Shown: positions 31,177 through 36,899 of the stretch, one piece after another | Layout of the letters: every line of letters starts with the position of its first letter | How positions within the stretch are numbered: position 1 is the stretch's first letter | Source: Candidatus Gastranaerophilales bacterium | GTDB taxonomy: Bacteria > Cyanobacteriota > Vampirovibrionia > Gastranaerophilales > Gastranaerophilaceae | Assembly: GCA_944322615.1 (NCBI GenBank) | Contig: CALUPH010000014.1 | Location: 1 to 47,496 of the forward strand | Length of the DNA stretch: 47,496 bases | Direction: 5' to 3' | Notes under the pieces: model-generated | The model's database searches: none | Told to the model about the DNA's origin: nothing | What the model saw: only the letters and a program-made list of their open reading frames with translations | Made by a program: the position numbers and the translations under genes

Positions 31177-31201
31177 GTCCATATAAAAGGTGGACTTATT
31201 T
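31177..31201 (+). terminator. Possible weak terminator after the 42-codon gene
   Basis: GTCCA (31177-31181) and TGGAC (31191-31195) form a short 5-bp stem with a 9-nt loop followed by TTATTTTG. The stem is weak. Confidence 0.3.
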
Positions 31202-32239
31202 TGTTTTGCTGATTTTTGTATATTCTTTTAACCCCAAATATATTAAAGCAGCAGAAAGTATTACAATGAAAAATATTATTGATGTATTCTTGTCTGTTAA
31301 ATTTATACCTGCAAAAAACGGGTAGGCTCCGATTATCAGTGCAAGGGTTGTAAGTCCGAATGCAAATCCTTCTCTGTTATTTAACATATTTGAAATAGCA
31401 GTCAAAGTTACAGGCATGGTGAAGTTAAAAAAGAAAATCCCTGTTATAAAAAGTATTGGATTATTAATTCCGAATGCAATTAATGGAGAAGATATAATAA
31501 GTGCACTGACGGTTGTTTTTATCCACCCGACTTTATCTGCAATAATACCTCCTGCCATTTTGCCAAATACTACTGCTAAAGTTAGTGAAAAGGCAAGGGA
31601 TATATTAGCTTTCCAATCAAGAGTTATGCTTAGTCCAATAAATGATCTTATAATAATTGCCAAAAGGAGCATGTTTATAATTAGTAAAAGTTTATTATAT
31701 ATTGGATTCTTTATGTTTTGATTTGTTTCTATCTTAGGTTTATTAATTAGAATTAAAAGAGCGCATATAGAAAGTAAAATTATAAAAATATATGCAGGAA
31801 GTAAATTTTTTTCAGCACTATAAGCCCCCATAAATAATCCCATAGCGCCAGGGGCAACATAAATACCTGGGATTGATGCTTTTTTATTACCAAGTTTCAG
31901 GCAGATTATTCCTCCTCCTACATGGAATGCTGCATTGCCGAAACCTGCCAGTATTGATGTTATTATTGGATTTCTCCAAAATAATACAGCCGATATAGTT
32001 AATAAACATCCTATTATTGCGCATATTTTCGGTTTTTTATTTCTATCAAAAATATTTCCGATAAAAGCTTGTACCCCAAATGCAATTGTATTGTATAAAA
32101 CGATAATGATAAAAGCCAATATACTACTTTTAAGATTATTAAATTTAACAGTTGAATAAAGTACAAAAATACAAGCCGCATCAATTAAAAGATGAGTTAT
32201 GCTATATATAGAAACAGTTTTAATCTTGTTTATTTGCAT
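31196..32239 (-). CDS. MFS transporter, last gene of the small-membrane-protein operon
   Basis: This 347-aa protein has 10-12 hydrophobic helices of the major facilitator superfamily. It shows a shortened A-motif region GNIFDRNKKPK between TM2 and TM3, GFGNAAFHVGGG in TM4 (recalling the FH motif of fosmidomycin-resistance-type MFS proteins), APGAMGLFMGAYSA in TM5 and GGIIADKVGWIKT in the second half. The substrate is unknown. Its ATG, behind AGAG, lies 20 bp inside the end of the small gene B3, so it belongs to the same transcript as the A/B proteins upstream. Confidence 0.82.
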   Translation of the reverse strand: MQINKIKTVSIYSITHLLIDAACIFVLYSTVKFNNLKSSILAFIIIVLYNTIAFGVQAFIGNIFDRNKKPKICAIIGCLLTISAVLFWRNPIITSILAGFGNAAFHVGGGIICLKLGNKKASIPGIYVAPGAMGLFMGAYSAEKNLLPAYIFIILLSICALLILINKPKIETNQNIKNPIYNKLLLIINMLLLAIIIRSFIGLSITLDWKANISLAFSLTLAVVFGKMAGGIIADKVGWIKTTVSALIISSPLIAFGINNPILFITGIFFFNFTMPVTLTAISNMLNNREGFAFGLTTLALIIGAYPFFAGINLTDKNTSIIFFIVILSAALIYLGLKEYTKISKTK

Positions 32240-32429
32240 TATTCTCTTTTATTTCTCTTTTTACGGAAATTGCAATAAAAATAATAATCACTATAAGAAT
32301 TATTGTGAATGGAATAATCGCGATGCTTTTTTCACCTTGAGGAATATAGTTTTTTACAATAATATCAGCAAAAACAGGAAATTCATTAAATAAAGTAATT
32401 ATAAAAAATAAAGCAAGACGTTTTTTCAT
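32220..32429 (-). CDS. Type B small membrane protein (B3), function unknown
   Basis: This 69-aa protein has a signal peptide (cleavage predicted after FPVFA, residue 21) giving a mature N-terminus Asp-Ile-Ile. About 15 external residues, one TM helix (IIPFTIILIVIIIFIAI) and a short basic tail follow, starting SVKREIKEN. The same mature Asp-Ile start and S-[IV]-K-[KR]-[DE]-[IM]-K tail occur in B1 and B2. Its ATG overlaps the A4 stop (ATGA, 4 bp) and is preceded by GGAG. It matches no family I can name. Confidence 0.75.
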   Translation of the reverse strand: MKKRLALFFIITLFNEFPVFADIIVKNYIPQGEKSIAIIPFTIILIVIIIFIAISVKREIKENNANKQD

Positions 32430-32803
32430 TGTAGGAAATCTCCTGTTAAAAGAATATATATCCACAAACAAACTAGAAAAGAAACTGAATTTAAGACAAA
32501 AGATATTCTTAAAAATGGTAGTTTCATTTCTTTTAAATATAATTTTAATAAATTAGATTCAATAATTATAACAAGTAGTTCAAGTGTACAAAGATAATAC
32601 AAACGGTATTTTTCTATTGCTTCACCGGTTTGTGATAAACCAAAACATAATAAAAGAGTTGTAAGTATATTGATAATTAATATATAAGTTATAATTTTTC
32701 GGTTTTTTAAATCAATAATTCTTGAAGTAAGAAATTTTGATATTGATGTAATAATTAATGGAAAAATATAATGCCAAAATACTATTAATAAATTATAATT
32801 CAT
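32426..32803 (-). CDS. Type A small polytopic membrane protein (A4), function unknown
   Basis: This 125-aa protein has about four hydrophobic helices. Shared type A features are INILTTLLL in an early helix, LELLVIIIESNLLKL with acidic residues in the third helix, and MKLPFLRISFVLNSVSFLV leading into the last helix. The end, YILLTGDFLQ, resembles the A2 end FGLLTGAILWN. It lies 21 bp after A3, its closest relative, and is translationally coupled to B3. No known domain is recognised. Confidence 0.75.
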   Translation of the reverse strand: MNYNLLIVFWHYIFPLIITSISKFLTSRIIDLKNRKIITYILIINILTTLLLCFGLSQTGEAIEKYRLYYLCTLELLVIIIESNLLKLYLKEMKLPFLRISFVLNSVSFLVCLWIYILLTGDFLQ

Positions 32804-32824
32804 AAAACTTCAATCTTTTTTTGT

Positions 32825-33145
32825 TTATATCCACAACCCTATCAAAAATGAGGTTGAGTTTATTATAAAAGATATTTTAAATAGAGGCAATTGCTTGCTC
32901 TTAATTACCAATTTTAATAACAACCATTCAATTATTACGACCAATATTTCTAAAAAAATAATATGAAGGAAGTTAAAATCAATATAAGTTTCATTTAATC
33001 TGTTTACAATAAAATTTAAAAGAGGATTTGTAAGAATATTGATTATTATAAGGGAACAGAATAATAATTTTTCTCTGAATCCCAATAAATATATAACTGA
33101 AAGTTCAATAATAATAGTAAATATTAATGCATAAATATAATTCAT
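32825..33145 (-). CDS. Type A small polytopic membrane protein (A3), function unknown
   Basis: This is the shortest type A member (106 aa, about four helices). It carries the clearest motifs: IIINILTNPLLNFIV, FLEILVVIIEWLLLKL (two intramembrane Glu) and KQLPLFKISFIINSTSFLIG. It ends just after the last helix. Its ATG lies 2 bp after the WG-repeat gene's stop codon. The NILTNPLLN and E-x-L-V-V-x-x-E pattern recalls small hypothetical membrane proteins I have seen in other gut bacteria, but I cannot name a family. Confidence 0.75.
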   Translation of the reverse strand: MNYIYALIFTIIIELSVIYLLGFREKLLFCSLIIINILTNPLLNFIVNRLNETYIDFNFLHIIFLEILVVIIEWLLLKLVIKSKQLPLFKISFIINSTSFLIGLWI

Positions 33146-33147
33146 TT

Positions 33148-34128
33148 TTATTCTTGATTATCCGTTTTATTTTCATTGTCTTGTCTTTTCATATCTTTTT
33201 TTATTGATATGGATATAAGTATAATTAAAGTTAGAAGAACCAGTGAAAATTTCCATAAGATATTACCCGCATATACTTCAACTTTAGCTATACCATTTTT
33301 AAAATTGGATGCGCTTCTGTATTGAGGTTTTATAATAGTTTTACCTGTTTTGTCAATATAGCCGTATCTGCCTCTTATGGATTTTCTTACAGCAGCTACA
33401 CCGTCTGAGAATGGAAGTATCTCTTTATACTCGCTTGCATCAATAACAACCTCTCCTTTTTTATTTATATAGCCTATTTTATAGTCATTATAAAAGTAAC
33501 CCTTCTTTAGTTTTTTCATTGCTTCAGCGCGTTCAACGGTAAGAGGTTCTGTTGTATAATATATTCTAGGCAACTCTTTTGTAAGAAGTTTAATATGAAA
33601 TTTATCACCTTCAATTATTCCGTATACTTCATTATTGTATTTAGCGTTATTATCAATTTCTACATCAAAAACAGCATCATATATTTCTTTACTCTGATAT
33701 TCCAGTCTGACTTTAGGTTTTGCATAGTATTTTATGGGGGCAAGTCCCTCGCTAAATATAGTTGCTCCTTTACAATAAGGATCTTCCCTATGCATATTGG
33801 AAATTCCGTTATTATAGCAAATAATGCTAGGGAATTTTGGTTCTATAACCCAATTATTATTTTCATCAATAAAACCCCAATTCCCGTTTTCTCTTTTCAA
33901 AGTTAAGCCTTCATAAAATTTATCGTATACCGGAATCTCTCGGAATGTTGAACTGACAGCTTTTTTCTGTTCTTGATTAGGGAATACAATTTGTCCTTTT
34001 TTATTTATATAAATATAGAATGTTGTTAGCGGCGGCGGAGCTATATCTGCTTTTACAGGTATAATTGTAGCCATAAACATAAAAATAAAAATGATAACTA
34101 TATTTATTTTGATTTTTAGAAATTCCAT
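33148..34128 (-). CDS. WG-repeat membrane-anchored protein (type B, B2)
   Basis: This 326-aa protein has a signal peptide (cleavage after PVKA, residue 27), a mature start DIAPPP, at least three WG/KWG beta repeats (GNWGFIDENNNWVIEPKF, KIGYINKKGEVVIDASEYK, GRYGYIDKTGKTIIKPQY), and a fourth weak unit near residue 38 (FYIYINKKGQIVFP). A C-terminal TM helix (about 290-307) and cytoplasmic tail SIKKDMKRQ follow. The repeats should face the periplasm or the surface and bind a ligand or protein. Its ends match the 69-71-aa B1 and B3 proteins, so it looks like a B protein with a WG domain inserted. AGGAG precedes the ATG, which overlaps A2 by 13 bp. Confidence 0.82.
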   Translation of the reverse strand: MEFLKIKINIVIIFIFMFMATIIPVKADIAPPPLTTFYIYINKKGQIVFPNQEQKKAVSSTFREIPVYDKFYEGLTLKRENGNWGFIDENNNWVIEPKFPSIICYNNGISNMHREDPYCKGATIFSEGLAPIKYYAKPKVRLEYQSKEIYDAVFDVEIDNNAKYNNEVYGIIEGDKFHIKLLTKELPRIYYTTEPLTVERAEAMKKLKKGYFYNDYKIGYINKKGEVVIDASEYKEILPFSDGVAAVRKSIRGRYGYIDKTGKTIIKPQYRSASNFKNGIAKVEVYAGNILWKFSLVLLTLIILISISIKKDMKRQDNENKTDNQE

Positions 34129-34505
34129 AAAATGGCTCCTGTTAACAAACCGAATGAATACATACCTACTATAAAAGCTATAGAATTTACAATTACTGAT
34201 AACTTAAAAAGAGGAAGTTCTTTATTTTCTATATTCATTTTTAACCAGAAATATTCAATTAAAATAACTATTAACAATAATAATAAAAGATAAAATATTC
34301 CAAATTCTTTATATGTTTTATTTGTTAGAAATAAAACTATAGAAAAAATAATATCTGTTATTATACTTATAACCAAAAGGTTTTTATATATTTCTTTCTC
34401 CTTAAGTCCGAGAAGTTTTAACATAATTAATTCTGAACCGATAGTTAAAATTATAGGAATAAAAATGTAAATAGATAATAATATTAAATAGATAATAACG
34501 CCCAT
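34116..34505 (-). CDS. Type A small polytopic membrane protein (A2), function unknown
   Basis: This is a 129-aa, four-helix protein. Family features are ISIITDIIFSIVLF in the second helix, LLIVILIEYFWLKMNI in the third (one intramembrane Glu), and KELPLFKLSVIVNSIAFIVG, followed by the end FGLLTGAILWNF. It starts one base after the B1 stop and overlaps the WG-repeat gene by 13 bp, which points to coupled synthesis with both B proteins. Confidence 0.75.
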   Translation of the reverse strand: MGVIIYLILLSIYIFIPIILTIGSELIMLKLLGLKEKEIYKNLLVISIITDIIFSIVLFLTNKTYKEFGIFYLLLLLLIVILIEYFWLKMNIENKELPLFKLSVIVNSIAFIVGMYSFGLLTGAILWNF

Positions 34506-34506
34506 T

Positions 34507-34722
34507 TTATTTCTTATTTTCCTTTTTTGCTTGTTCTGTTTGTTCCTGTTTCTTAATATCTTTCTTTATTGATATAAAGGTATAAACAGCCAAAATAAAT
34601 AATGCAATGTAAAAAGGAAGTCTTGCTTCTTGTGGAAAAGCTCTGCCGAAGGTATTTACAATATCTGCTCTTACAGGATTTGAAATTAACAATAATAATA
34701 AAAGAATAATTATTCTATACAT
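34507..34722 (-). CDS. Type B small membrane protein (B1), function unknown
   Basis: This 71-aa protein has a signal peptide (cleavage after NPVRA, residue 19), mature start DIVNTFG, one TM helix (about 37-52, PFYIALFILAVYTF) and a highly charged tail starting SIKKDIKKQEQTEQAKK. The ATG at 34722 shares a base with the A1 stop codon (TGATG), which fixes the start over an upstream in-frame ATG. Tail and mature N-terminus match B2 and B3. Confidence 0.75.
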   Translation of the reverse strand: MYRIIILLLLLLISNPVRADIVNTFGRAFPQEARLPFYIALFILAVYTFISIKKDIKKQEQTEQAKKENKK

Positions 34723-35075
34723 CAAAATATACTCCAAAAGAAAATTATACTTGGTAAAAATGATATACAATTCATAAATACAGAAATTTTAAATAAAGGT
34801 AAATTCGTTTCTTGAATTAAAAATTTTAAGCAAAAATATTTAGCAGTAATAACTAAAAAGAGAAAAAAGACCGGTGCACTTCCATATTCTTTGAACGGAA
34901 AGCCCCAAAGAATACCCGTAAATACTGCGGAAATAATCAGAACCCCGCATATTATATTTGAATAGAATATATTGGGGTATGATATAAATTTTTTTAATCT
35001 TAACAATTTTACAGCCATAAGTTCTAAAATACTTATGAAGACTGCATAAAGAAATAGAAATATACCAAAATACAT
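34722..35075 (-). CDS. Type A small polytopic membrane protein (A1), first gene of the operon
   Basis: This 117-aa protein has about four hydrophobic helices and is the most divergent type A member. The motif TNLPLFKISVFMNCISFL before the last helix is preserved, whereas the acidic position of the third helix is replaced (VITAKYFCLKFL). The ATG has an AGAGGT site. It overlaps B1 by one base and begins the minus-strand operon A1-B1-A2-B2-A3-A4-B3-MFS, divergent from gpmI. Confidence 0.72.
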   Translation of the reverse strand: MYFGIFLFLYAVFISILELMAVKLLRLKKFISYPNIFYSNIICGVLIISAVFTGILWGFPFKEYGSAPVFFLFLVITAKYFCLKFLIQETNLPLFKISVFMNCISFLPSIIFFWSIF

Positions 35076-36736: not shown

Positions 36737-36755
36737 CCTGTTAAATTAATAATTG

Positions 36756-36782
36756 AAAGCCCCGATAAAGGGGCTTTTTTTT
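36756..36782 (+). terminator. Terminator of gpmI
   Basis: AAAGCCCC (36756-36763) and GGGGCTTT (36770-36777) form an 8-bp stem with a 6-nt loop followed by a T tract. Confidence 0.92.
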
Positions 36783-36899
36783 ATATGGTTATTTGTAAAT
36801 ATAATGTACATAAATTCTCTTTGTGTTGTTAATGTCTTTAAATTTAAAATTTATATCGGATAATATAAATATAAAAAGTACAAATTAAAGGGCAATAAA

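Follow-up and report, generated by a model that had tools for sequence, protein, structure and literature searches.

In Anabaena, septal junctions and nanopores depend on FraC (PMC6463045), a membrane protein of the septum that has four helices in the inner membrane and no enzyme motif. MFS transporters such as Spns1, Spns2, OxlT, and also SfMCT have a common 12-helix fold, conserved motif-A aspartates, and buried charged residues. In animals, monocarboxylate transporters together with basigin or embigin represent an MFS protein with a single-TM partner bearing a variable outer domain.

In this study, we analysed an operon on a contig of 47,496 bp, here called the window, from the genome of a gut bacterium (1.96 Mb, approximately 30% GC). 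The operon encodes proteins of two families, called A and B, and an MFS-fold transporter. A shares with FraC the four helices in the inner membrane, the lack of an enzyme motif, and the spacing within one hairpin (FraC TM1-TM2 corresponds to A hairpin 2); the ANxxSY carried by the last helix of FraC was also counted among the likenesses. In contrast to FraC, A is shorter, has two E...N hairpins, is not part of a FraD/FraE operon, lies next to B and often next to MFS, and occurs in archaea and most bacterial phyla. For comparison by hhalign, FraC sequences from cyanobacterial genomes were aligned. A hairpin 2 matched FraC hairpin 1 with a probability of 93% (E 4e-7), while reversed and MFS controls remained below 3%. 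The spacing E-x22-N-x2-[ST]-x3-G was found in 46/72 A proteins, 12/22 FraC proteins, and 4/1568 other ORFs; this pattern was chosen after viewing the alignment and is thus supportive, not independent. Of the FraC models, NF045624 matched 3/72 A proteins (best E 1.5e-5) and PF24301 one (E 1e-4); A3 of the window was matched by neither, and A stays below the FraC curated cut-off. The order fraC-fraD-fraE was not found at the window and its relatives, where gpmI and a TPR gene are the flanking genes, while cyanobacterial FraC loci show FraD/FraE-like neighbours. A distant relation of A and FraC at the level of the hairpin is likely, and by score and gene order A does not qualify as a FraC member.

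The transporter of the window differs from the known MFS proteins in forming its own subfamily with the motif GNAxFHVGGG and invariant H16, D20, H106, and R198, and in scoring below Pfam MFS_1. The likeness to monocarboxylate transporters with basigin or embigin is an analogy only, without any claimed sequence relation, and the bacterial system adds the four-helix A and the N-terminal D-[I/V] motif of B. WG repeats (PF14903) are present in B2 and in the long B3 of sister genomes as the outer domain of some B proteins only; most B proteins elsewhere have other domains or none. A similarity of A to EmrE/SMR found little support: only one glutamate position is shared, Pfam gave no match, and the fold scores of EmrE (Foldseek E of 4.0; VIA Z of 3.1 over 48 residues) are at noise level. 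No description of A/B was found in the open-access literature searched, subscription journals not being covered. With no curated family or description found, the A/B system is likely to be new, and its biochemical function is unknown.

Organization of the operon

The initial annotation, made without database searches, had proposed an eight-gene operon of alternating small membrane proteins transcribed in the order A1-B1-A2-B2-A3-A4-B3-MFS. All eight ORFs are present on the minus strand (31196-35075), and the gene order and all proposed overlaps and gaps were confirmed (Table 1). Assuming ATG starts for B1 (34722) and B3 (32429), A1/B1 overlap by 1 bp, A2/B2 by 13 bp, A4/B3 by 4 bp, and B3/MFS by 20 bp, while B1/A2, B2/A3, and A3/A4 are separated by 1, 2, and 21 bp. 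The term small membrane proteins does not hold for B2 with its three WG repeats. The operon is flanked by gpmI and a TPR gene, and its neighbours are housekeeping genes.

Table 1. Genes of the operon in the window, in order of transcription
Gene	Position	Strand	Features
A1	34722..35075	-	117 aa; diverged 4-helix A protein without E66 and E73
B1	34507..34722	-	signal peptide with mature end A|DIVNTFGRAFP; single TM and basic tail; 71 aa counted from ATG
A2	34116..34505	-	129 aa; A protein without E66, N36, and N40
B2	33148..34128	-	signal peptide followed by A|DIAPPP; WG repeats (PF14903); single TM and basic tail; 326 aa
A3	32825..33145	-	106 aa; canonical A with full E14/E66/E73/N96 set; contains E-x22-N-x2-S-x3-G
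A4	32426..32803	-	125 aa; A protein with K in place of E14
B3	32220..32429	-	signal peptide followed by A|DIIVKNYIP; TM and basic tail; 69 aa counted from ATG
MFS-fold transporter	31196..32239	-	347 aa; 12 predicted helices; motif GNAAFHVGGG

The annotation had also regarded the A proteins as related and the B proteins as alike at both ends, and both claims held. A1 to A4 are mutually homologous (A2-A3 37.5% identity, E 7e-27; A3-A4 39%, E 3e-24; A1-A2 E 5e-16), also in profile searches. B1, B2, and B3 resemble each other at the signal-peptide end and at the TM/basic-tail end (B1-B3 E 2.6e-8; B2-B3 tail E 2e-6); the E-values of these comparisons within the window come from a small database. 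The picture of the A proteins must be qualified, as only A3 has the complete set of conserved motifs. In B2, Pfam detected WG_beta_rep in three stretches (E 2.2e-29; 101.6 bits versus a cut-off of 25.6). Stop codons and frameshifts are absent from the array. No match to PADLOC defence models was obtained among the eight operon proteins, a viral-contig scan using the MFS protein gave no match, and a promoter scan was uninformative (42 found versus 34 expected).

The A/B pair in Bacteria and Archaea

For A3, AlphaFold2 predicted four helices with a pLDDT of 95. Foldseek and VIA gave no confident match of this fold in the PDB or a viral library, and DgkA with a Z of 6.2 is within the noise of helical bundles. 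Conservation over 83 A proteins was highest for N96 (83), E14 (80), and E73 (80), followed by E66 (75), S99 (75), G103 (74), P41 (71), and T39 (71). A appears as a double two-helix hairpin with E14...N36..T39 in hairpin 1 and E73...N96..S99 in hairpin 2, and the two hairpins resemble an internal repeat (hhalign 47% versus 1% for reversed sequences). A topology with both ends outside and the basic loops 1-2 and 3-4 inside is inferred. No Pfam or NCBIfam family covers the 72 members scanned, and A shows none of the catalytic dyads of known membrane enzymes. The set E14/E66/E73/N96 is complete in 67/72 A proteins. The five exceptions, namely A1, A2, and A4 of the window and the second A of two further loci (L087 and L088), are all extra copies in multi-A loci. 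Since A3 keeps the full residue set and has the shortest branch among the A proteins of the window, it may be the functional reference copy, with A1, A2, and A4 as specialised or decaying partners; this is inferred from sequence.

Mature B begins with D-[I/V/M], usually followed by P, and the cleavage-site pattern is V-x-A|D-[IVML]..P, so that the constant element of B falls exactly at the signal-peptidase cleavage site. In 65/68 B candidates D is found at the mature end, and the next residue is I (24), V (21), M (10), or L (7). While these ends are constant, the outer domain differs by lineage and can be absent, consist of WG repeats, be peptidoglycan-binding, or be another exported domain; also, the anchor differs (TM with basic tail, T9SS tail, or MYXO-CTERM-like tail). 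Pfam identified WG repeats in the window, PG_binding_1 in L064, and Por_Secre_tail in L081, but no family of their own for the B and fused B-A sequences tested. By eye, the D-V motif apparently lacks a cleavable signal peptide in a few loci (L078, L104, L115, and L127). A B protein of two units, each ending with CGC...TM...RRR as in a MYXO-CTERM-like sorting tail, was also seen by eye (L124, 7489-8760).

A scan of 84,980 species genomes with the MFS alignment gave 235 relatives, of which the best 80 were taken as loci. These come from Gastranaerophilales, Clostridia, Chloroflexota, Bacteroidota, Myxococcota, Planctomycetota, Elusimicrobiota, Acidobacteriota, several CPR phyla, Methanosarcina, Diapherotrites, and Micrarchaeota. 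An A model seeded with seven Gastranaerophilales A proteins and one relative from another genus matched 58 loci at first; iteration then yielded 71 sources with 83 proteins (70/80 loci and one seed locus), with accepted matches at E 1e-17 or better. An A gene on the same strand within 2.5 kb of MFS is present in 68/80 loci, and the B motif is found beside A and MFS in most MFS loci. Reversed A ORFs reached 24 bits (E 1e-5) with the iterated model due to composition; therefore, weak A matches of about 20 bits (L049, L051, and most of the matches with E 0.003-0.008) were not counted. Candidate B-A fusions beside an MFS relative in L049 and L051, two loci of the cyanobacterial phylum, were dropped with A scores at noise level, and a putative MFS-A fusion of 544 aa in L124 proved to be a wrong-frame ORF in GC-rich DNA, leaving no Rosetta-stone fusion. 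Clustering of neighbours across loci revealed no constant fourth gene family. In 12 genomes searched as a whole, A was usually single-copy, and the positions checked were those of the MFS-linked copy. Distances of A and MFS correlate (rho 0.48; 0/1000 permutations), species relatedness not being removed.

Genomes without the transporter were informative about the core of the system. Within the order of Ruminiclostridium (58 genomes), MFS is present in seven genomes, with an adjoining stand-alone A in six, the seventh MFS being a fragment; the remaining 51 genomes contain no stand-alone A better than E 1e-20. In many Clostridia, a single protein, not accompanied by MFS, runs from a signal peptide and A|D-x-G-P-K-P (or a closely similar motif) through an outer domain to an A domain at the C-terminus. 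Single-protein B-A sequences with A|D-x-GPKPS/T (or NSAxPP) form a large family common in Clostridia, with one archaeal case (L156-L169, L174, L187), and fusions of this type had no Pfam family in those tested. In the class of Methanosarcina (100 genomes), all four genomes with MFS have A at about 50 bp from it, and 26 further genomes have A without an MFS of this family. The locus of Methanosarcina sp. KYL-1 has the order A-MFS-B. Of the archaeal loci with A and without MFS, 19 were read: in 18 of them, a signal-peptide protein B carrying A|D[IV] immediately precedes A, and in one B and A are fused. The B motif is enriched upstream of archaeal A (17/18 versus 7/85 other signal-peptide ORFs; Fisher p 5e-13). 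Since archaeal and Clostridia pairs or fusions occur without MFS, the core conserved in both Bacteria and Archaea is the B and A pair, whether as neighbours or as a fusion, and MFS is an optional third part. That the pair is also a functional unit is likely. In many Methanosarcinia (L176-L179, L182, L184, L195), B-A is closely followed downstream by a pentapeptide-repeat-like protein of about 173 aa; in the MFS locus L192, such a protein is located upstream of A.

The initial annotation knew of no named system with this layout and would have been refuted by a described pair. No such pair was found: there is no Pfam or NCBIfam family for A, nor for B outside the added domains. It had further stated that it would be refuted by homologues lacking a conserved neighbourhood or by proteins unrelated in profile comparison. 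The former did not occur, as the A-B neighbourhood is conserved, nor did the latter for the A proteins. Its idea of heteromeric complexes remains a suggestion without interaction data. Not contained in it were the variable outer domains of B, the recurrence of MFS as partner elsewhere, and the pan-prokaryotic spread of the pair. Overall, its interpretation as a candidate undescribed A/B system is supported, with the exception of complex formation.

The transporter and possible roles of the pair

The AF2 model of the transporter (pLDDT 96; pTM 0.93) shows a canonical 12-helix MFS fold, and Foldseek/VIA gave 495 PDB chains with Z of at least 8. The nearest folds were Spns1 (Z 35.3, the best value, over 343 residues) and Spns2 (34.6), followed by OxlT (32.9). 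The lead of the two lipid transporters is small, and likeness of fold gives no substrate. No relative of the protein in the PDB was found by sequence. Pfam MFS_1 did not match the window protein at E up to 1, while 27/69 family members match (best E 7e-16). Of the residues named above, all four are invariant in 69 sequences and K227 is near-invariant, which might suit proton-coupled transport of an organic anion or amphipath; this is inferred without substrate data.

Our proposal is a docking of B on A, by which transport would be gated or assisted. Without data on interaction, substrate, or phenotype we give it a probability of only about 0.35. In this view, the constant D-[I/V/M] end of the exported B, left by signal-peptidase cleavage, would dock at the outer face on A, against its conserved intramembrane acidic and amide residues. 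The outer domain of B would read the envelope or bind a ligand, A would relay the state of B to MFS or stabilise MFS, and the substrate moved by MFS would be an organic anion or an amphipathic compound. Among the copies of the window, A3 would be the working one paired with MFS, and A1, A2, and A4 would be diverged partners of other B proteins. Regulation of MFS cannot be the sole role of A/B because the pair is complete without MFS. Also, B proteins with a Por_Secre_tail should leave the inner membrane, an argument against B as a stable subunit. The few loci with a D-V motif that apparently lacks a cleavable signal peptide likewise count against the proposal. A bolder and improbable reading is that A is a membrane receptor for the D-[I/V] N-terminus made by signal peptidase, as an ancient pan-prokaryotic module handing envelope-facing domains to machines such as MFS, with FraC as a specialised offshoot; the receptor would have been multiplied in the window, and the copies other than A3 would have lost parts of the binding site.

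Several other explanations have to be weighed against docking and gating. A could act on B as an enzyme or sorting factor, either modifying its new D-[I/V] end after removal of the signal peptide or passing it on, with MFS, if present, supplying or removing substrate or product. This remains possible, as the invariant element of B coincides with the cleavage site, conserved polar residues lie within the membrane and, as the best argument, several B proteins go elsewhere (T9SS tail; MYXO-CTERM-like tail in L124). However, B-A fusions would be their own substrates, internal D-V motifs apparently occur without signal peptide, a catalytic dyad of known membrane enzymes is missing, and the diverged A1, A2, and A4 are retained. 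Alternatively, A/B could be a FraC-like structural envelope module (channel, plug, or scaffold) that MFS uses only for placement. The match of A hairpin 2 to FraC hairpin 1 with identical spacing and the need of FraC for septal junctions and nanopores (PMC6463045) speak for it, but only a single hairpin aligns, FraD/FraE neighbours are absent, most hosts are not filamentous cyanobacteria, and the biochemical role of FraC itself is unknown, so that we consider it unlikely.

Equally doubtful is a role of A/B as a sensor or small transporter in its own right, for instance for cations via the three glutamates, with MFS as a co-regulated neighbour. The pair without MFS in archaea and Clostridia and the acidic intramembrane triad would fit, whereas the close, recurrent linkage of A and MFS in many phyla and the lack of a match of the A fold to any transporter would not. 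Least probable is that the array consists mostly of decaying or drifting duplicates without a special role. A1, A2, and A4 lack some conserved residues, the array is found in 6 of about 24 genomes of the genus, and dN/dS is above that of gpmI; against this stand the absence of stops and frameshifts, the tight overlapping junctions, dN/dS below 0.4 in most comparisons, and the retention of the same array in four genomes.

Irrespective of which of these explanations applies, a two-protein membrane module of Bacteria and Archaea with conserved intramembrane residues and a conserved exported partner apparently has neither a family entry nor a described function. The module is small and experimentally accessible; its hosts include Methanosarcina, which is genetically tractable, and Clostridia that are in culture. 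If the link to FraC is true, a septal-junction protein with unknown biochemical role would gain in A its first outside relative, thereby offering a route to asking for the origin of bacterial cell-cell channels.

The array within the genus

With the A profile, A proteins were detected in 6 of about 24 genomes of the same genus, with a weak match in one more, and five genomes besides that of the window contain the array in whole or in part. The arrangement in G192 is that of the window, G189 and G269 have A1-B1-A2-B2-A3-B3long-MFS, and G208 and G210 have the minimal unit A-B-MFS. In G189 and G269, A4 is absent and its place is occupied by B3long, a WG-type B of 363 aa. At this site (window 32220-32803 versus 7385-8476 in L023), A4 and short B3 in two genomes thus stand against the WG-type B3 in two sisters, and the final residues NNANKQD are identical in both forms of B3. 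Given these arrangements, the array of the window is most likely an expansion of an A-B-MFS unit, in which the B nearest to MFS gave way to A4 and a short B3 that shares its C-terminal tail.

In the A tree, the A proteins of the window and the single A of sister genomes form one clade (support 100/98); A1 has the longest branch. This in-lineage clade, starred in the tree, supports the repeated duplication claimed in the initial annotation for its A part. Values of dN/dS were 0.16-0.38 in most comparisons within the genus, based on small counts, and those of the array exceed that of the housekeeping neighbour gpmI. Given these values and the copies within the genus, the operon genes are coding and conserved. 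In B1-A2-B2 (33148-34722), only 3/322 synonymous differences were counted versus 33/320 in gpmI (p 5e-8; window versus G189, G192, and G269, L022-L024). This approximately ten-fold deficit may point to recent exchange by recombination.

Some minor differences were also observed. In a different genus of this family, an orphan A-like gene is located immediately behind carB (L025, 8629-9006), without B or MFS in the stretch read. Between gpmI and valS (window 36737-36899), the sisters (L022, L023, L024) have one or two additional genes of about 300 aa that the window does not have. In G210, the A-B-MFS region is present twice with small differences on two contigs (C39 and C43; L019 and L020), representing either a duplication or the presence of more than one strain in the MAG.
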